Translations under genes and position numbers: made by a program
In this document: positions 766 to 15,969 of the stretch, piece by piece
Numbering within the stretch: position 1 is the stretch's first letter
Layout of the letters: every line of letters starts with the position of its first letter
Source: a virus
Virus record (IMG/VR): IMGVR_UViG_3300043464_000319
Location: 1 to 24,371 of that record
Direction: 5' to 3' (one strand)
Length of the DNA: 24,371 nucleotides
The notes under the pieces: generated by a model
The model's input: the letters and a program-made list of their open reading frames with translations, nothing else
The model's database searches: none
What the model was told of the DNA's origin: nothing

Positions 766-774
766 TGGTATAAT
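766..774 (+). promoter_or_regulatory. Extended -10 promoter TGGTATAAT
   Basis: TGG plus TATAAT (769-774) ends 7 nt before the ATG at 782, the leaderless spacing. No -35 box is visible; the corresponding region lies inside the right arm of the hairpin ending at 755. Confidence 0.7.
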
Positions 775-4059: not shown

Positions 4060-4362
4060 ATGGCTACAACAGTAAAAGCGCTGGCAAGAACAGCAGCAGC
4101 AACATCATCAACAACACTATACACAGTACCAGCATCAACAACTGCTATTATAACAAATATTGCAGTTACAAATACCGCAGGAACAGCAGGAACATTTTCA
4201 CTTTCACTAGACGGTGTATCATTGCATACAACTTCGGCGATCGCTGCAAATTCTACAGTTTATATTGATCTTAAGCAAGCACTCGCTACAACAAAAGTTA
4301 TTGCTGGTCTTGCGTCAGCAACAACAATCAACTTTCACATTAGTGGAATAGAAGTCTCGTAA
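4060..4362 (+). CDS. 100-residue beta-sandwich virion protein, tandem copy 2
   Basis: Same length and order of motifs as the gene at 3721: 'LYTVPASTTAIITNIAVTNT', 'SAIAANSTVYIDLKQALATTKV' in shortened form, and a C-terminal 'HISGIEVS'. The two differ mainly in the middle strand region (residues 40-58), where exposed loops would lie. Its own promoter means the two copies may be expressed at different levels. The stop codon overlaps the next ATG (TAATG at 4360-4364), tying it to the first gene of the 125-residue array. Confidence 0.65.
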   Translation: MATTVKALARTAAATSSTTLYTVPASTTAIITNIAVTNTAGTAGTFSLSLDGVSLHTTSAIAANSTVYIDLKQALATTKVIAGLASATTINFHISGIEVS

Positions 4363-4739
4363 TGGGGATTCTTGTTATACCAACAGCAGCAGGTGGTGGA
4401 ATTAAATCGGTTCAACGTGGACTGGCTAGTTCTGCTGGAAACGTAACTATCAATGCTGTTGATATAACAAAATCTTTTGTTCAAGTTTTTGGTACCACAT
4501 CTTCTGGAACTGCTACTACAGATTCCACAGTAGGTTCAACAGGATCTAATGCATCTTCAGGAACAGCAGGAAGTAATAATAGCCCAGGTCCTAGTGGAGG
4601 ATCTTCAAGCATTAACTCAAGAAATCTTTCGGCAGGAACAAATAATCTTGTAACTGCTGTTGCACAAGGATACTTGTCTAACTCTACAACATTGGTAGTT
4701 TCACATGCCTGTCGTTGGGAAGTAGTTGAGTTCGCATGA
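4362..4739 (+). CDS. 125-residue adhesin-like virion protein, array copy 1
   Basis: First of four consecutive paralogues of identical length. Conserved parts are 'GGGIKSVQRG' (about residues 11-20), 'SFVQVFGTTSSGT' (about 38-50) and a C-terminal 'CRWEVVEFA' with a lone Cys at 117. The middle (about 50-95) is Gly/Ser/Asn-rich and differs most between copies. IKSVQRG-type proteins are seen in phage tail loci; I infer a beta-rich fibre-tip or decoration protein with a variable surface. It is translated by coupling to the preceding gene through TAATG. Confidence 0.65.
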   Translation: MGILVIPTAAGGGIKSVQRGLASSAGNVTINAVDITKSFVQVFGTTSSGTATTDSTVGSTGSNASSGTAGSNNSPGPSGGSSSINSRNLSAGTNNLVTAVAQGYLSNSTTLVVSHACRWEVVEFA

Positions 4740-4767
4740 AAAACAAAAATATGATTGAGAGATTGAT

Positions 4768-5145
4768 ATGGGAGTAAGGGCAATACCAGCATCAGCAGGT
4801 GGTGGAATTAAGTCAGTCCAACGTGGCCTTGCCGCTGCTGGAGGAAACGTAACTATTACTGCTGTAGATATTTCAAAATCTTTTGTTAAAGTATTTGGCA
4901 CCACATCTTCAGGAACAGTGGCCTCAACTTCTACAGTAGATGCCGCGAATGCAAATGCTGTTAGTGGTCTTAGTGGTAGCAATATTAGTGCACAGCATGC
5001 TGGTGGTGGAGCAAGCATTGGAGCAAGAAATTTATCAGGCGGAGCAAATAATCTTGTTGCAGCAGTTGCACAAGGCTATTTATCTACCTCTACAACTTTG
5101 GTAGTTTCTCACCCTTGTCGGTGGGAAGTTATTGAGTTTGCGTAA
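4768..5145 (+). CDS. 125-residue adhesin-like virion protein, array copy 2
   Basis: Same architecture as copy 1, with 'GGGIKSVQRGLAAAGGNVTI' at residues 11-30, 'SFVKVFGTTSSGT', and C-terminal 'PCRWEVIEFA'. The central segment is distinct (Ala/Asn-rich, with 'AQHAGGGASIGARNLSGG' in place of the 'PGPSGGSSS' type of the other three copies), so this is the most divergent middle in the array. A 28-nt spacer with a weak GAGAG ribosome site precedes it, and no promoter is evident. Role as for the array in general: inferred fibre tip or decoration. Confidence 0.65.
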   Translation: MGVRAIPASAGGGIKSVQRGLAAAGGNVTITAVDISKSFVKVFGTTSSGTVASTSTVDAANANAVSGLSGSNISAQHAGGGASIGARNLSGGANNLVAAVAQGYLSTSTTLVVSHPCRWEVIEFA

Positions 5146-5156
5146 AGGAGAAGCAG

Positions 5157-5534
5157 ATGGCCCTAGACACATATCCTTCAGGTGGTGGAGGCGGAATTAA
5201 ATCAGTTCAACGTGGACTTGCTTCCTCAGCAGGTACGGTTACAATTACGGCAGTAAATATTAGTAAATCCTTTGTTCAAGTTTTTGGCACTACATCTTCA
5301 GGTACTATTGCTGCATCTGGAACAATTGGTGCTCAATCGCACAATGCTTCTTCAGGTGTGGCAGGAAGCAACTATTCACCTGGACCTTCGGGTGGATCTT
5401 CAAGTGTTGGCTCTAGTAGTATATCTGCTGGTACAAATAATCTTCTTGCAGCAACTGCTCAAGGTTATCTATCTAACTCAACTAGTTTGGTAGTTTCTCA
5501 CCCTTGTAGGTGGGAAGTTATTGAGTTTGCGTAA
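5157..5534 (+). CDS. 125-residue adhesin-like virion protein, array copy 3
   Basis: Array member with an extra glycine-rich N-terminus ('SGGGGGIKSVQRG') and a middle containing 'YSPGPSGGSSSVGSSS'. Its 3' end and the junction with the next copy (about 5494-5543) match the end of copy 2 and its junction (about 5104-5154) almost base for base, including the AAAGGAG ribosome site. This points to recent duplication or gene conversion. Cys117 is kept in 'PCRWEVIEFA'. Confidence 0.65.
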   Translation: MALDTYPSGGGGGIKSVQRGLASSAGTVTITAVNISKSFVQVFGTTSSGTIAASGTIGAQSHNASSGVAGSNYSPGPSGGSSSVGSSSISAGTNNLLAATAQGYLSNSTSLVVSHPCRWEVIEFA

Positions 5535-5543
5535 AGGAGAAAC

Positions 5544-5921
5544 ATGGTAATATCAACATATCCTGCAGCAAGTAGCGGTGGAATTAAGTCAGTCCAACGT
5601 GGTTCGGCTGGAGCAGCAGGGACAGTAACTATAACTGCCGTAGATGTTAATAAGGCTTTTGTTCAAGTTTTTGGCACAACATCTTCAGGCACTGTTGCTT
5701 TGTCTGGAGTTGTTGGGGCACAAAACCATAGCGCTAATACAGGTATAGCAAACAGCAACATTACTCCTGGACCTTCGTCTGGATCTTCAAGTGTTGGTGC
5801 TAGCAATATATCTGGTGGAACAAACAACCTTGTATCAGGAATTGTACAAGGGTATCTTTCAAATTCAACAAGTCTAATAGTCAGCGGTGCTTGCCGTTGG
5901 GAAGTAGTGGAGTTTAACTAA
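5544..5921 (+). CDS. 125-residue adhesin-like virion protein, array copy 4
   Basis: Last array member. It keeps 'GGIKSVQRG', 'FVQVFGTTSSGT' and 'CRWEVVEF', but ends in Asn instead of Ala and has 'ITPGPSSGSSSVGASN' in the middle. AAAGGAG just upstream is the ribosome site. Its TAA overlaps the ATG of the next gene (TAATG at 5919-5923). Like the others it lacks a signal peptide and transmembrane segments, as expected for a virion component. Confidence 0.65.
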   Translation: MVISTYPAASSGGIKSVQRGSAGAAGTVTITAVDVNKAFVQVFGTTSSGTVALSGVVGAQNHSANTGIANSNITPGPSSGSSSVGASNISGGTNNLVSGIVQGYLSNSTSLIVSGACRWEVVEFN

Positions 5922-6235
5922 TGAAAACATTTATTCAATTAAAAGATGGTATCGGGTTTGCCTTTATTGACACACCTAGTGATACAGACGGTATTGAGGT
6001 TACATTTGGTACTGGAGAGTCTTATATTAAGAAACAACTAATTAATGATGAGTGGGTAGAAGCCCCAATTATTAAATATGCAAATTTAGGTACAGATGGA
6101 CGTATTGTTGAAGTATTATCAACAGTATTTAGTAGTGTTGTTGGAGATAATCCAATTATTCCAGAAGGACTAGATCTTTTGTCTACTTGGAATGGTACCT
6201 CTTGGGTCGCACCACAATCTTCAGATGAAGAATAA
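5921..6235 (+). CDS. 104-residue unknown phage protein in fibre operon
   Basis: An acidic protein with an N-terminal 'MKTFIQLKDGIGFAFI', a middle containing 'NDEWVEAPIIKYANLG', and a C-terminal 'TWNGTSWVAPQSSDEE'. The 'WNGTSWV' box followed by a short acidic tail is common at the end of small phage tail or fibre-accessory proteins. A fibre chaperone or accessory role is possible, but no family is recognised. It is coupled to the four-gene array by TAATG. Confidence 0.5.
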   Translation: MKTFIQLKDGIGFAFIDTPSDTDGIEVTFGTGESYIKKQLINDEWVEAPIIKYANLGTDGRIVEVLSTVFSSVVGDNPIIPEGLDLLSTWNGTSWVAPQSSDEE

Positions 6236-6262
6236 TAAGTAAAACAATAAAGGGGGGGTTTA

Positions 6263-6946
6263 GTGGATATTGTTTTTACTAATACTTTGGGATATAAAAA
6301 TATTGAGCCACCAACTCCTGCAACAAAAATGTTGCCAGGTTGGTATAAAGAAATGGATTCATATCTTAATGGAGAAAAATTAACTACAGGTGTGGGCATT
6401 AATTCTGGGACTATAAAAAGATGTATGCCTGTATTTGATGCAATAGTAGCGGGGTATATAATTACACTTCCAGCAGATGTTGCTGTTTATTTAAAAGATG
6501 GTGAGCAAAAGTTTCATTCTGCAGATTTTAATTTAATAGATTTTCATCCAATTGAACAGGCTCCTACACATCCAGTAAAAAATAAATTTATATATCCTAA
6601 GTGGATCAATGTGTGGTCTATAAAAACACCACCAGGATACTCAACATTATTTGTAAATCCAATGCATCATAGCCTGCCTTTTACAATTTTGCCTGGGATA
6701 GTAGATACAGATAAGTATACTGCTCCAGTAAATTTTCCTTTTGTAATCAATGACATTAATTTTGAAGGAATAATTCCAAAAGGCACACCTATTGCTCAAG
6801 TGATTCCTTTCAAAAGAGATCCTTGGGAGATTAAAATTGGCGGATTTGAAGAAATGCAAGAACAGTCTGACGTTTCTAATATATTAAAAACAAAGTTTTT
6901 TGATAGATATAAGAATGCTTTTAGATCATCTAAAGAATATAAATAA
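6263..6946 (+). CDS. DUF6065-like protein, 227 aa
   Basis: Soluble protein with features I associate with the DUF6065 family of phage and bacterial proteins. There is an N-terminal segment with 'PGWYKEMDSYL', a central 'PKWINVWSIKTPPGYSTLFV' (about residues 112-131) leading to 'HHSLPF', and a C-terminal 'IIPKGTPIAQVIPFKRDPWE' (about 172-191). The last piece reads like the end of a cupin-type double-stranded beta-helix, but a catalytic role is not established. The start is GTG at 6263 with a purine run (AGGGGGGG) just upstream. It lies directly before the sulfotransferase, which has its own promoter. The family call comes from memory of motifs and is moderately sure. Confidence 0.55.
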   Translation: MDIVFTNTLGYKNIEPPTPATKMLPGWYKEMDSYLNGEKLTTGVGINSGTIKRCMPVFDAIVAGYIITLPADVAVYLKDGEQKFHSADFNLIDFHPIEQAPTHPVKNKFIYPKWINVWSIKTPPGYSTLFVNPMHHSLPFTILPGIVDTDKYTAPVNFPFVINDINFEGIIPKGTPIAQVIPFKRDPWEIKIGGFEEMQEQSDVSNILKTKFFDRYKNAFRSSKEYK

Positions 6947-6997
6947 AACTTTACCTATTTTTCTGTTTAGTGTAGACTTTACAAAATAAAGACTTTG

Positions 6998-7006
6998 TGA
7001 TATACT
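6998..7006 (+). promoter_or_regulatory. Extended -10 promoter TGATATACT with -35-like TTTACA
   Basis: TATACT at 7001-7006 ends 7 nt before the ATG at 7014. It is one of the few promoters here with a fair -35 box: TTTACA at 6978-6983 with a 17-nt spacer. The sulfotransferase mRNA should be leaderless. Confidence 0.7.
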
Positions 7007-7013
7007 TTTTTGT

Positions 7014-7853
7014 ATGAATAAAAAATATTATTTTTTAGCAGGATTACCAAGAAGTGGCAACACTCTTCTATCAGCACTGCTAAATCAAAACCCAGAAATA
7101 TATAGCACCCCAATGAGTCCAGTATCTACTTTAATGTGGCAATACACAAATTCTTTTGGGTACATGGAACATATAGTGCGTAATGAAGAAAATCAGAATA
7201 GAGCAGTAGAACTGCTGTCTTGTTTTTTTGATATGTTCTACAAAGATGTAGAAAAGCCAATAATAATTGACAGGGAAAAAAGTTGGGGGACACCACTTGG
7301 TCTTGATTTAATTAAAAAATATGTTACTCCTACACCTAAAATAATAGTTACAGTTCGAGACATTCTAGAAATACTTGCCTCCTTTGTTGTAATAGATGCA
7401 GACTACCTAAAAAAGAATACCTTGGAATATGGAGCATTTATTAACAATTATCGTTCACATGAAGACACAATAGCAGAATATCTAATGCGTCCAAATGGAG
7501 AGATAGATCAGACGCTGCTATCTCTAGCATCTTCTTTTTATCCAGAAAATAAGGGTATGTTTCATATAGTAGAATATAACGATCTTATGTCAAAGCCAAA
7601 AGAAACAATGTCTGGAATTTATGAGTTTTTAGAAATACCCGATTATAAGCACGATTTTGATAATATAGAAAAGATAGAGTCAGACAATGACGCAATCCTA
7701 GGACTTCCTAGCAACCTACATGATATAAGAAAATCTATATCTAAGTCATCAACCTCTAAAGATATTTTATCAGATTACATAAAACATAAATACTCCAATA
7801 TGGAATTCTGGAGAGAAGGATCTCTTATGAAGGTTAGAGGAAAAGACTTTTAA
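7014..7853 (+). CDS. Sulfotransferase-family protein, 279 aa
   Basis: The N-terminus has the 5'-phosphosulfate-binding loop of PAPS-dependent sulfotransferases, 'LAGLPRSGNTLLSALL' (residues 8-23). A second element fits the 3'-phosphate-binding motif: 'IIVTVRDILEILASFVV' (110-126), with Arg115 and Ser123 eight residues apart as in the family. Enzymes of this fold move a sulfo group from PAPS to hydroxyl or amino groups of sugars, proteins or small molecules; the acceptor here cannot be read from sequence. Length is normal and no signal peptide is seen, so it should act in the cytoplasm. Its leaderless promoter and shared terminator (7857-7899) make it a single-gene unit after the fibre operons. 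Modification of a virion or host surface polymer is an inference. Confidence 0.75.
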   Translation: MNKKYYFLAGLPRSGNTLLSALLNQNPEIYSTPMSPVSTLMWQYTNSFGYMEHIVRNEENQNRAVELLSCFFDMFYKDVEKPIIIDREKSWGTPLGLDLIKKYVTPTPKIIVTVRDILEILASFVVIDADYLKKNTLEYGAFINNYRSHEDTIAEYLMRPNGEIDQTLLSLASSFYPENKGMFHIVEYNDLMSKPKETMSGIYEFLEIPDYKHDFDNIEKIESDNDAILGLPSNLHDIRKSISKSSTSKDILSDYIKHKYSNMEFWREGSLMKVRGKDF

Positions 7854-7856
7854 TAT

Positions 7857-7899
7857 AAAAAATACCCCCTAGCATATAGCCAAGGGGTATTTATTTTTA
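7857..7899. terminator. Bidirectional intrinsic terminator
   Basis: AATACCCC (7861-7868) pairs with GGGGTATT (7884-7891). It is flanked by an A-run on the left and TTTATTTTT on the right, so it can terminate both the rightward sulfotransferase and the leftward endolysin transcripts, which converge here. Confidence 0.8.
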
Positions 7900-7903
7900 A
7901 GCA

Positions 7904-8476
7904 CTATGCGTACTTAGTTGGAAATTTCTTTAACCATCTTTGTACAGGAGCAGTCTTAGCGTATTTCCAAGACTTCCAATCTGTTCCACCCTTGGTCATA
8001 TGAAATACAATTTCTGCATTTTTTACAGGGCTAAACAACTCAGCGTTAGCATCTAGGTCAAACTTATCTCTACGATCTGGTCCTAGATTACCGATCATAT
8101 TTATTTGGAATACCCCATAAGAACTGTCTCCAGTCTTAGCGTTTCCGTTAAAGGCAAAAGGTCTTCCATTTGACTCTGCCTTGGCAACAGCCCAAGCAGT
8201 CTTTAGACCCTTTCCAGTAAAGCCTACAGCCTTCAATAATTGAACTAAGTCATAGTCAGTCAAAGAATGTGCATTCTTATACTTTTCCAAGATAATTGCC
8301 TTTTTTGGCTTAGAAACCAAAAAAACCGACTTAGGGTCGGCAGGGGTAGTCACGGACTTATTACTCAATAAATTATTTTCAGTTGTATTTGTTAAAGCAT
8401 TGGCAGAATTGCTTACAGGCGCAAGCAGTCCAACCAAAGATAGGATTCCAATCCAAGCCATCTTGTCTCTTCTCAT
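7904..8476 (-). CDS. Secreted lysozyme/SLT-like endolysin, 190 aa
   Basis: A basic N-terminus and hydrophobic core (residues 7-21), then 'SNSANA' with a possible signal-peptidase site after Ala27, indicate Sec export. A linker follows (28-70), and then a lysozyme-fold domain (about 72-190). Glu101 in 'AKAESNG' is the likely catalytic acid, and 'SSYGVFQIN' (118-126) matches the second conserved element of transglycosylase SLT/goose-type lysozymes. It would cleave the glycan strands of peptidoglycan. ATG 8476 is chosen because AGGAGG (8485-8490) lies 8 nt before it; TTG at 8479 is too close. The gene runs against its neighbours, with its own promoter (8527-8535), a leader hairpin and a shared terminator. 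Virion-associated muramidase is the alternative to lytic endolysin. Confidence 0.75.
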   Translation of the reverse strand: MRRDKMAWIGILSLVGLLAPVSNSANALTNTTENNLLSNKSVTTPADPKSVFLVSKPKKAIILEKYKNAHSLTDYDLVQLLKAVGFTGKGLKTAWAVAKAESNGRPFAFNGNAKTGDSSYGVFQINMIGNLGPDRRDKFDLDANAELFSPVKNAEIVFHMTKGGTDWKSWKYAKTAPVQRWLKKFPTKYA

Positions 8477-8501
8477 CAAATAAACCTCCTAGAAACAAAA
8501 G

Positions 8502-8517
8502 CACCAGTTGTCTGGTG
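8502..8517 (-). promoter_or_regulatory. Leader hairpin of the endolysin mRNA
   Basis: On the minus strand CACCAG (8517-8512) and CTGGTG (8507-8502) pair around an ACAA loop. The stem begins 3-4 nt after the predicted transcription start and is followed by TTTTGTTT. It could stabilise the 5' end or act as a weak attenuator before the AGGAGG ribosome site. Confidence 0.5.
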
Positions 8518-8526
8518 TTACTACCA

Positions 8527-8535
8527 AGTATAACA
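8527..8535 (-). promoter_or_regulatory. Extended -10 promoter TGTTATACT for the endolysin
   Basis: On the minus strand TGT plus TATACT (8532-8527), with a possible -35 TTGCTT about 18 nt upstream. Transcription should start near 8520, giving a leader of about 45 nt. It diverges from the promoter at 8603-8611. Confidence 0.6.
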
Positions 8536-8602
8536 TGTTTTTGCCTCAAAAAGCAAACTTTTAACATTTTTATTAAATTGTTATAAAACCTTAACTATGA
8601 AG

Positions 8603-8611
8603 TGGTATAAT
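8603..8611 (+). promoter_or_regulatory. Extended -10 promoter TGGTATAAT
   Basis: TATAAT at 8606-8611, 10 nt before the ATG at 8622. The predicted leader is only about 3-4 nt. An in-frame ATG at 8610 overlaps the box and cannot be transcribed from it. Confidence 0.65.
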
Positions 8612-8621
8612 GGTAAATACT

Positions 8622-9152
8622 ATGGCTACAGGTTCAACAACAAACTATAACATTCCTTATCCACTATCGACTGATCCAGTCAATGTGCACGAGGATGTTC
8701 AGTCATTGGCAGAAACCATTGAATCTTTGCTTGGAACAGTTGGTCCTGCATACCAGACTCTTGATGTAACGAATAACAGTGGATCTTCTATTGCTAAAGG
8801 AAGTCCAGTTTACATTTCTGGGTATGGAACATCAAAACCAACAATAGCAAAATGTGATTCTGATGATCTAACAACATTTCCAGTAATTGGATTAGCAACA
8901 ACTGCTATATCTAACAGTTCTGATGGAGTTGTTCTTCTATCTGGAGTATTTTCAAATATTAATACAAACTCTTATGCCGTTGGGAACAAACTGTATGTTG
9001 CTAATGGTGGGGGATTAACTGCAACAATTCCAGCAACAGGCTCAGGAGCAGTGGCGGTAGTTTTAAAACAAAATACAACAACAGGAATATTACTAGTTGG
9101 ACAACCAAAAGGTAATGGCTCTTGGGGATCATTGAAAGCGGGTTTATCATAA
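8622..9152 (+). CDS. Fibre/virion structural protein, 176 aa
   Basis: The N-terminus 'TTNYNIPYPLSTDPVNVHED' (about residues 5-24), followed by the helix 'VQSLAETIESLLG', is a familiar opening of phage tail-fibre proteins and probably forms the attachment/trimerisation part. The C-terminal part (about 46-170) is beta-rich: 'GSPVYISGYG', 'FPVIGLATTAIS', 'GVFSNINTNSYAVGNKLYV' and a final 'TGILLVGQP'. This repeat-like order is seen in capsid-decoration or fibre-tip domains of the DUF2190 type. ATG 8622 is preferred because an upstream ATG lies inside the promoter. Its stop shares TAATG with the next gene. Confidence 0.6.
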   Translation: MATGSTTNYNIPYPLSTDPVNVHEDVQSLAETIESLLGTVGPAYQTLDVTNNSGSSIAKGSPVYISGYGTSKPTIAKCDSDDLTTFPVIGLATTAISNSSDGVVLLSGVFSNINTNSYAVGNKLYVANGGGLTATIPATGSGAVAVVLKQNTTTGILLVGQPKGNGSWGSLKAGLS

Positions 9153-9792: not shown

Positions 9793-9801
9793 TGATATAA
9801 T
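9793..9801 (+). promoter_or_regulatory. Extended -10 promoter TGATATAAT
   Basis: TATAAT at 9796-9801 ends 6 nt before the ATG at 9808. No Shine-Dalgarno sequence fits in the gap, so this is a leaderless start. Confidence 0.7.
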
Positions 9802-13935: not shown

Positions 13936-15969
13936 ATGTCAGAAAGCGTATTCTCTTTTCGTCTATCAGAAGAATTTGTAAATAAATATCAAACCATTCC
14001 AGCGCCATTTGGATTCTCAGATGCAGGGTCTAACTCTCTGGGAGAGGTAACATTTATTCGTACATATTCTCGTGTTAAGGAAGACGGTACAAAGGAACGC
14101 TGGCATGAAGTTTGTCGTCGTGTAATTGAGGGTATGTATTCAGTACAGAAGAATCACGCTAAAGATAACCGTCTACCCTGGAATGATAACAAGGCTCAGA
14201 AGTCTGCACAAGAAGCATTTCAAAGAATGTTTGAATTGAAGTGGACTCCCCCAGGTCGTGGACTTTGGGCCTTTGGAACTCCTATGACTATGGAGAAGCG
14301 TAACTCTGCTTCCCTTCAAAACTGTGCAATGGTTTCAACCAGAGATATTGATCGTAATGATCCAGGTGCCATTTTTGCTTGGGTAATGGATGCATTAATG
14401 TTGGGTATAGGTGTAGGGTTTGATACCCTTGGACAAGACAAGCAAATGTCAATCTATGCACCTACAGAGCCAGCGTCTATCTATGAAATCCCAGATACTC
14501 GTGAAGGATGGGTCGAGTCTGTTAGATTACTTATTAATTCATTCCTTCGTCAAAACCAGCCTATTCAACAGTTTAACTATGATTTCATCCGACCTCTAGG
14601 TGCCCCTATTAAGGGCTTTGGAGGCGTTGCAAGCGGTCCAGAACCACTTATTGATCTCCATACACGTATTCGTAATGTAATCGGTTCTAGAGCAGGAGAA
14701 GCCCTTGATAGCCGTGCCATTGTAGACCTTGTAAATCTTATTGGTACATGTGTTGTTTCTGGAAATGTTCGTCGTTCTGCTACCCTTGCACTTGGCGTTC
14801 CACAAGATGAAGGTTTTATTAATCTTAAAAATCCAGAAGTATTTCCTGAAAGAAATTCATATGATCCAGAAAAGCCAGGTTGGGCGTGGATGAGTAATAA
14901 CTCAATTGCTGCTGAAATTGGAACAAAGTATGAAGACTATGTAGATCTAATTGCAGATAATGGAGAGCCAGGATTTATCTGGCTTGACGTTGCTCGTAAT
15001 TATGGAAGACTTGCAGATGCTCCAGATTATAAAGATGCCCGTGTTATGGGATTTAATCCATGTGCAGAGCAACCACTTGAGTCCTATGAACTTTGTACTC
15101 TTGTAGAGGTTCACTTAAACCGTCATGAATCTAAAGAAGATTTTCTTAAGACATTAAAGTTTGCATACCTTTATGGAAAGACTGTAACTCTCATGCCAAC
15201 ACACTGGCAGCAGACAAACGGTATTATGCAACGTAATCGCCGTATTGGAACATCTTTAACAGGTATTGCTTCATTTGCAGATACTTATGGACTTCCAACA
15301 ACTCGTGAGTGGATGGATGAGGGATATAATAAAATTCGTCACTATGATCACCAATACTCAGAATGGCTTTGCGTTCGTGAATCAGTTCGTGTAACTACTG
15401 TTAAACCTTCAGGATCAGTCTCACTTCTTTCTGGTGCTACTCCTGGAGTTCACTGGGGTCCTGGTGGAGAGTTCTATCTTCGTGCCATTCGCTTTGGAAA
15501 TACTGACCCAATGCTTTATTTGTTTAAAGCAGCGGGATATAAGATTGAATCAGACCTTGTATCAGCAAATACATCAGTAGTCTATTTCCCAGTAGCGTCT
15601 GGACACAAACGTGCAGAAAAGCAAGTTAGCCTATTTGAAAAAATTGGTTTGGCTGCAACTGCTCAGAAGTACTGGTCAGATAATGGTGTTTCTGTAACCC
15701 TTTCTTTTGACAAAGAAGAAGAGACAAAGTTTATTGCTCCAGCCCTGAATATGTACGAGGGACAGTTAAAGGCAGTCTCATTCCTTCCAATGGGAAATAA
15801 AACATACCCTCAGCAACCTTATACAGAAATAACAAGAGAAGAATACAACTCATATGTAGGCAAGATTGGTAAGATTGATTGGTCTGCTATTTATGATGGA
15901 GTAGAAAACCTTGAGGCTGCTGGTGAGGCATACTGTTCTACAGACGCATGTGAGATTAAGTTTTACTAG
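13936..15969 (+). CDS. nrdJ: Class II (adenosylcobalamin-dependent) ribonucleoside-triphosphate reductase, 677 aa
   Basis: Reduces ribonucleotides to deoxyribonucleotides using a radical generated from adenosylcobalamin. Diagnostic residues match the monomeric Lactobacillus leichmannii type. Cys130 ('LQNCAMVST') and Cys387 are the active-site redox pair. Cys376 in 'NPCAEQ' is the thiyl-radical cysteine with Glu378 two residues on, and Cys387 is 11 residues after it as in the family. Cys667 and Cys672 in the C-terminal 'YCSTDACEIKFY' are the mobile thiol pair, also with family spacing. 'GNVRRSATLALG' (276-287) is another conserved block. Length is slightly shorter than the roughly 740 of bacterial enzymes. 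It stands alone between a terminator and the next promoter, amid virion genes. Confidence 0.92.
   Translation: MSESVFSFRLSEEFVNKYQTIPAPFGFSDAGSNSLGEVTFIRTYSRVKEDGTKERWHEVCRRVIEGMYSVQKNHAKDNRLPWNDNKAQKSAQEAFQRMFELKWTPPGRGLWAFGTPMTMEKRNSASLQNCAMVSTRDIDRNDPGAIFAWVMDALMLGIGVGFDTLGQDKQMSIYAPTEPASIYEIPDTREGWVESVRLLINSFLRQNQPIQQFNYDFIRPLGAPIKGFGGVASGPEPLIDLHTRIRNVIGSRAGEALDSRAIVDLVNLIGTCVVSGNVRRSATLALGVPQDEGFINLKNPEVFPERNSYDPEKPGWAWMSNNSIAAEIGTKYEDYVDLIADNGEPGFIWLDVARNYGRLADAPDYKDARVMGFNPCAEQPLESYELCTLVEVHLNRHESKEDFLKTLKFAYLYGKTVTLMPTHWQQTNGIMQRNRRIGTSLTGIASFADTYGLPTTREWMDEGYNKIRHYDHQYSEWLCVRESVRVTTVKPSGSVSLLSGATPGVHWGPGGEFYLRAIRFGNTDPMLYLFKAAGYKIESDLVSANTSVVYFPVASGHKRAEKQVSLFEKIGLAATAQKYWSDNGVSVTLSFDKEEETKFIAPALNMYEGQLKAVSFLPMGNKTYPQQPYTEITREEYNSYVGKIGKIDWSAIYDGVENLEAAGEAYCSTDACEIKFY

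Follow-up and report, generated by a model that had tools for sequence, protein, structure and literature searches.

A sulfotransferase gene carried by a tailed phage raises the question of which molecule its product modifies. The gene lies in IMG/VR record IMGVR_UViG_3300043464_000319, a virus contig of 24,371 bases that was analyzed over its full length (hereafter, the window), and that also encodes a portal protein, a head protease, a collagen-like protein and many tail-like proteins. The window portal is closest to those of Streptomyces phages (46% identity), which, together with the SLT_3-type lysin, makes an actinobacterial host likely; a tRNA scan found no tRNA. The collagen-like tail protein is encoded at 1286-2029, with no hydroxylase identified next to it in the scanned window proteins, and a gene for a B12-dependent ribonucleotide reductase occupies 13936-15969, within the tail-gene region. 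The features discussed below are collected in Table 1.

Table 1. Positions of genes, protein motifs and expression signals in the 24,371-base window.
Feature	Position	Strand	Basis or remark
Same promoter type, TGGTATAAT	766..774	+	7 nt before ATG 782, tail-region gene
Four tandem paralogous 125-aa proteins	4362..5921	+	Presumed tail-tip/fibre proteins, from position
104-aa protein	5921..6235	+	Position of small c3 proteins after fibre tips in relatives; putative role
DUF6065-like protein	6263..6946	+	Directly upstream of sulfotransferase; PHROG 7084, E 1.9e-55
-35-like TTTACA	6978..6983	+	17 nt spacer; statistically ordinary
Extended -10 element, TGATATACT	6998..7006	+	7 nt before ATG 7014; arrangement conserved
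Sulfotransferase gene	7014..7853	+	279 aa, ATG to TAA; Pfam, PHROG, AlphaFold2
5'-phosphosulfate-binding loop region, residues 7-23	7032..7082	+	Invariant positions in 35/35 viral rows
3'-phosphate-binding motif, R115...S123	7356..7382	+	Invariant in 35/35 viral and 78/78 bacterial rows
Terminator hairpin	7860..7892		Between convergent sulfotransferase and lysin genes
Lysin (SLT_3)	7904..8479	-	PF18896, E 6.4e-16; conserved right border of slot
Same promoter type, TGATATAAT	9793..9801	+	6 nt before ATG 9808, tail-region gene

The original prediction, made from the sequence of the locus, was that of a phage-encoded sulfotransferase with both PAPS-binding motifs intact, and it was borne out by profile matches, residue conservation and predicted fold. 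The product matches the Pfam family Sulfotransfer_3 (PF13469; E 2.1e-15, 58 bits against a cut-off of 27) and also Sulfotransfer_1 (E 2.7e-11), and it belongs to PHROG 27463 (E 2.7e-101), a family whose function is unannotated. Its loop reads G10-L-P-R13-S-G15-N-T17, and R115 and S123 form the 3'-phosphate pair. Residues F7, G10, P12, R13, G15, T17, L18, R115 and S123 are invariant in every one of 35 distinct viral sequences (those left from 47 loci and the window once identical copies had been merged), and G10, P12, R13, G15, T17, R115 and S123 are also invariant in the 78 aligned bacterial relatives (80 loci fetched, two removed for length). As the loop pattern GLPR[ST]G[NSA]TLL served as a seed of the bacterial search, its invariance in that set is partly selected; R115, S123, D226, H236 and W91 lie outside the seeds. 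Moreover, D226 and H236 do not vary in any of the 35 viral and 78 bacterial rows, W91 is likewise invariant in the bacterial rows, and H236 is, judged by this conservation, a candidate catalytic base. The conserved peptide KYSNMEFW at residues 259-266 was discounted, as it was itself a seed pattern and its conservation is partly a search artefact.

The AlphaFold2 model of the enzyme (mean pLDDT 88.8, pTM 0.88) has human TPST1 as its best structural match (Z 18.6, 3.6 A, 238 residues, 14% identity), followed by tick TPST (Z 17.6), the olefin-synthase and CurM domains (Z 16.1 and 15.7, respectively) and a heparan 3-O-sulfotransferase (Z 13.8). Sulfotransferases accounted for all 50 of the matches listed, and the P-loop kinase fold that had been named beforehand as speaking against the assignment was absent. 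A profile search of the PDB gave TPST1 at E 7e-12 and the CurM and olefin-synthase domains at E 1e-8 to 3e-8, with CurM at 3e-8. TPST1 and TPST2 (5wrj, 3ap1, 9wwe) are therefore nearest both in fold and among PDB sequences, and they share the PAPS loop and the R/S pair with the window protein. Classing the enzyme as a TPST was nevertheless rejected, because the position of the catalytic Glu of TPST2 (E99) holds M34 in the window protein, as placed by sequence alignment; in most relatives this position is L, and E is found in the L034 group of viral loci only. TPSTs also belong to a secretory context, and there is none around the window gene. The second-best fold group, that of the CurM and olefin-synthase sulfotransferases (4gbm, 4gox), consists of polyketide synthase domains whose substrate is carrier-bound, a setting that is likewise absent around the window gene. 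A further precedent, in its gene arrangement, is RaxST of Xanthomonas, described in the available text of PMC6637879 as a bacterial tyrosine sulfotransferase encoded beside its secreted target, although that target is a small peptide and not a fibre.

The gene had also been read as a single leaderless unit with its own promoter and terminator, and this was supported at the level of sequence, with the exception of one promoter element. No Shine-Dalgarno sequence is present between TGATATACT and ATG 7014. Of 20 distinct window-clade genes, 15 have the motif TGNTANNNT upstream at a distance of 5-7 nt from the ATG, as against 69 of 9053 ATG triplets overall (both strands of the window plus 20 loci). 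The P value of 3e-28 is nominal, since the gap of 5-7 nt was picked once the upstream sequences had been inspected and since the genes are relatives of one another. The 20 genes are the distinct ones that start with ATG and have 50 nt of sequence before it; left out of the test were L007 (lacking an ATG start under the rule used), L020/L021, L003:4214 and L027:8925 (motif filter), and L033 and L047 (partial). The bases flanking the -10 element differ widely among window-clade genes. This recurrent placement of the box, from which transcription would begin at or close to the ATG, supports a reading of the sulfotransferase gene as a putative leaderless transcription unit of its own. The hairpin that follows the gene (-14 kcal/mol, z -2.4, then ATTTTT) agrees with the proposed terminator. 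What did not hold was the description of the -35 box as the best seen: TTTACA is an ordinary five-of-six match, and the 10 promoter-like matches in 6000-9000 are not above the 12.9 +/- 3.6 found in shuffles. As the same -10 element precedes two further genes of the tail region (Table 1), the sequence suggests that the sulfotransferase may share its timing with tail genes.

We then considered the genes that accompany the enzyme in its closest relatives. In the tree, the window clade is grouped with a support of 99/97; the tree included 40 of the 78 bacterial rows, and from its deeper forks, which have long branches, nothing is drawn. In 20 window-clade records (the window and 19 loci), 24 sulfotransferase copies were counted, and for 21 of them one of the three preceding genes encodes a Gly-rich protein (at least 100 aa, 18% Gly or more), compared to 51 of 248 other genes of at least 90 aa (Fisher 7e-11, a value that, like our other P values, overstates independence, the homologues being related). 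In the related loci, ORFs were chosen greedily by length and not with a gene finder. The three copies lacking such a neighbor are that of the window itself and the second copies of two tandem pairs (L003:5096 and L009:8001); in the window, the upstream genes encode the 125-aa paralogues, with 14-15% Gly, the 104-aa protein and the DUF6065-like protein. The Gly-rich proteins are polyglycine, fibre-like proteins, with sub-threshold Gly_rich_2 matches in both of the two that were scanned, and the common order is a Gly-rich fibre-like protein, a small c3 protein and the sulfotransferase. Tandem sulfotransferase copies also occur among the fibre-like genes, three in L003 and two each in L009 and L027.

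On the right-hand side, the next gene is c20 in six cases, the lysin in four, ribonucleotide reductase in two, and one of nine others, once each. Because the downstream gene differs between copies, the sulfotransferase gene, as read from gene order, moves together with fibre-like genes from site to site; with at least three right-hand contexts (c20, lysin, ribonucleotide reductase) and a promoter that is mostly kept, a portable unit is what would be expected. Overall, these arrangements assign the sulfotransferase gene to a tail-fibre cassette that is exchangeable, and its linkage to fibre-like genes is a new observation. The linkage shows co-inheritance, not substrate.

A search with the window lysin, which borders the gene on the right, returned 60 loci, with the gene before the lysin readable in 54. 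The last gene before the lysin encodes a DUF6065-like protein in 10 of these, a small c3 protein in nine, the sulfotransferase in six, a Gly-rich protein in five, a c4 tail-region protein in four, a GlcNAc-type glycosyltransferase in four and another protein in 16. Within four genes before the lysin, a sulfotransferase, 2OG-Fe oxygenase, glycosyltransferase or DUF6065-like gene was found in 21 of the 54 readable slots and was absent from 33, so that such an enzyme is dispensable there. Loci L151-L154, the lysins of which are 89% identical to that of the window, have genes for a GlcNAc-type transferase, a 2OG oxygenase and a DUF6065-like protein where the window has its sulfotransferase. In Dictyostelium, a prolyl hydroxylase and then a GlcNAc transferase of similar type modify one cytosolic protein, and on this precedent the slot enzymes are read as putatively protein-modifying. 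In L151-L154, L165, L168, L169 and L177, arrays of 2OG-Fe oxygenases lie by lysins and are joined by PF11397 GlcNAc-type glycosyltransferases, DUF6065-like genes or both, and by analogy such arrays resemble a prolyl-hydroxylation/glycosylation module. As to the DUF6065-like protein, PF19541 is matched by 10 of 21 relatives while the window protein itself is unmatched, and its AlphaFold2 model (pLDDT 84.4) has a weak match to dUTPase (Foldseek E 2e-4, TMq about 0.4). Relatives of this protein are also present in haloarchaeal tailed viruses, with 33-43% identity among the matches listed.

Bacterial homologues of the sulfotransferase, taken as the best 80 of at least 350 confirmed matches, also have large extracellular-type proteins as neighbors. 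In 45 of these 80 loci, a DUF4347 protein is encoded directly downstream of the sulfotransferase, which is its position in all 45 loci positive for the DUF4347 profile (built from Pfam-identified domains). When the eight loci that offer under 2 kb of downstream sequence are set aside, an ORF of at least 600 aa follows on the same strand within 800 nt in 54 of 72 loci, compared to 31 of 403 other genes. Ten of these large proteins were scanned, yielding DUF4347 in six, a type V secretion signal in two, sortilin/BNR repeats in one and no domain in one; the domains of the large neighbor proteins include Ig-like, cadherin and fn3, or a type V secretion signal. Proteins of the Phage Tail Collar type are found nearby in 20 of the best 80 loci, and APS kinase, which makes PAPS, in 11. 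In L064, L073, L093, L103, L105 and others, the sulfotransferase lies by tandem Phage Tail Collar proteins and a DUF4347 protein, often together with a GNAT acetyltransferase, which makes this a recurrent locus. The association was also examined in reverse, in genomes that had not been chosen by the enzyme: of 116 genomes drawn from one bacterial family, 28 encode DUF4347, and a sulfotransferase lies at most 1.5 kb upstream of DUF4347 in seven of the 29 loci read out of the DUF4347 matches, the seed genomes (L191-L193) being excluded.

The Gly-rich link is absent from the 14 distant viral loci, where it was seen in 1 of 14 cases, compared to 21 of 148. In the L034 group, the sulfotransferase lies near runs of 2OG oxygenases, and in L028, L029 and L036 the neighboring repeat proteins are rich in YGWFGGG-like motifs. 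Locus L045 has a Gly-rich run followed by a Trp halogenase, a sulfotransferase overlapping the halogenase gene by 8 nt, and a 2OG oxygenase. The isolated cyanophages S-SKS1, S-SRM01 and S-SCSM1 encode sulfotransferases that are 27-33% identical to the window protein. In S-SKS1 the gene comes directly after that of a kelch-repeat protein; in S-SRM01 it directly follows an RCC1-repeat protein gene and is clustered with a glycosyltransferase and a nucleotide-sugar epimerase; and in S-SCSM1 it lies among nuclease genes. These enzymes and those of the OM43 phages are of the same kind as that of the window, but more distant. A Sulfotransfer_3 gene in OM43 phages is reported in the available text of PMC10580990, which calls its function in phages unclear and describes no link to fibres.

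To look for an acceptor residue, the composition of Gly-rich proteins followed by a sulfotransferase (21) was compared with that of Gly-rich proteins without one (47), with P values that are uncorrected across twenty residues and serve as leads only. Linked proteins have less Tyr (2.90 vs. 3.77%, p 0.005) and less Trp (0.24 vs. 0.65%, p 0.0002), together with small rises in His (0.41 vs. 0.23, p 0.007) and Arg (1.95 vs. 1.52, p 0.03), while Ser and Thr are unchanged; Tyr near an acidic residue occurs 2.2 times per linked protein and 2.8 times per unlinked one. The lower Tyr content disfavors simple tyrosine sulfation of the linked Gly-rich proteins, and no residue stands out as acceptor in this comparison. 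The acceptor may instead be a fibre-bound sugar, the small c3 protein or some other protein of the tail.

On balance, the probable role of the enzyme is, in our view, to sulfate in the cytosol, with PAPS as donor, the tail-fibre protein that the phage itself encodes, or a sugar attached to it, whereby host binding would be tuned. The sulfotransferase would be produced alongside tail proteins during infection and would move sulfate from host PAPS to the fibre or adhesin, either to a side chain or to an attached sugar, before virion assembly; the negative charge thus added at the host-contacting tip may change or sharpen receptor binding. The original prediction had listed three roles, namely alteration of host surface glycans against superinfection, modification of virion glycoproteins and change of a signaling molecule. 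Modification of the virion, widened here to fibre proteins, is favored because the copies follow fibre-like genes, share their slot with putative protein-modifying enzymes and, in cellular homologues, precede adhesins, whereas nothing was found in favor of a signaling molecule. Superinfection exclusion by receptor masking, in which a host surface glycan precursor would be sulfated so that new virions do not adhere to infected cells or debris, is unlikely in our view, even though linkage to a given fibre allele would be expected if the enzyme hid the receptor of that fibre, and even though the S-SRM01 gene is clustered with sugar-related enzymes. The slot is shared with 2OG-Fe oxygenases and GlcNAc-type transferases (the latter in the slot of relatives, not beside the sulfotransferase gene) rather than with O-antigen-type membrane enzymes, the bacterial homologues precede adhesins and not polysaccharide loci, and a short lytic cycle would leave little time for rebuilding surface glycans.

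Somewhat less probable still is an auxiliary metabolic gene acting on a small host molecule or lipid independently of the tail. Phage sulfotransferases are treated as auxiliary metabolic genes in the available texts of PMC10580990 and PMC12285232, the surroundings of the S-SCSM1 gene are not tail-related, and the CurM and olefin-synthase enzymes form the second-best fold group; such a role would, however, leave unexplained the repeated placement behind fibre-like genes, the tandem copies and the linkage to bacterial adhesins. We consider it improbable that the gene is a chance resident of a recombination hot spot, in which case fibre regions would collect any gene and the enzyme would be incidental to the tail. 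The slot is indeed hypervariable, and most readable slots lack an enzyme of this set, but the cofactor motifs and H236, D226 and W91 are invariant, the same few enzymes recur in the slot, and the link to extracellular fibres is also present in bacteria, outside phage tail loci.

In the literature searched, chiefly outside subscription journals, no proposal of fibre or adhesin sulfation by such an enzyme was found. The available texts of PMC13299392, PMC10269572 and PMC11309003 mention a sulfotransferase without a link to fibre modification, and that of PMC10202952 describes a variable tail-fibre island in actinophages, for which a role in host recognition is suggested. Sulfation of fibres, as favored here, may be one instance of a wider pattern, which we put forward tentatively and hold to be rather less probable than the role of the enzyme itself: tailed phages would diversify receptor binding by swapping fibre-modifying enzymes together with fibres, with sulfotransferase, prolyl-hydroxylase-like 2OG oxygenase, GlcNAc-type transferase and halogenase being interchangeable, and the same sulfotransferase lineage would decorate giant adhesins of bacteria. 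The cassette offers a concrete acceptor candidate: the fibre to which it is linked in phages, and its DUF4347 adhesin neighbor in bacteria. If the proposal is true, phages and bacteria would share a system for fibre and adhesin sulfation, a function would be suggested for the bacterial sulfotransferase lineage, and host range would be set by enzymes in addition to fibre sequence, so that host predictions based on fibres only would miss part of it.
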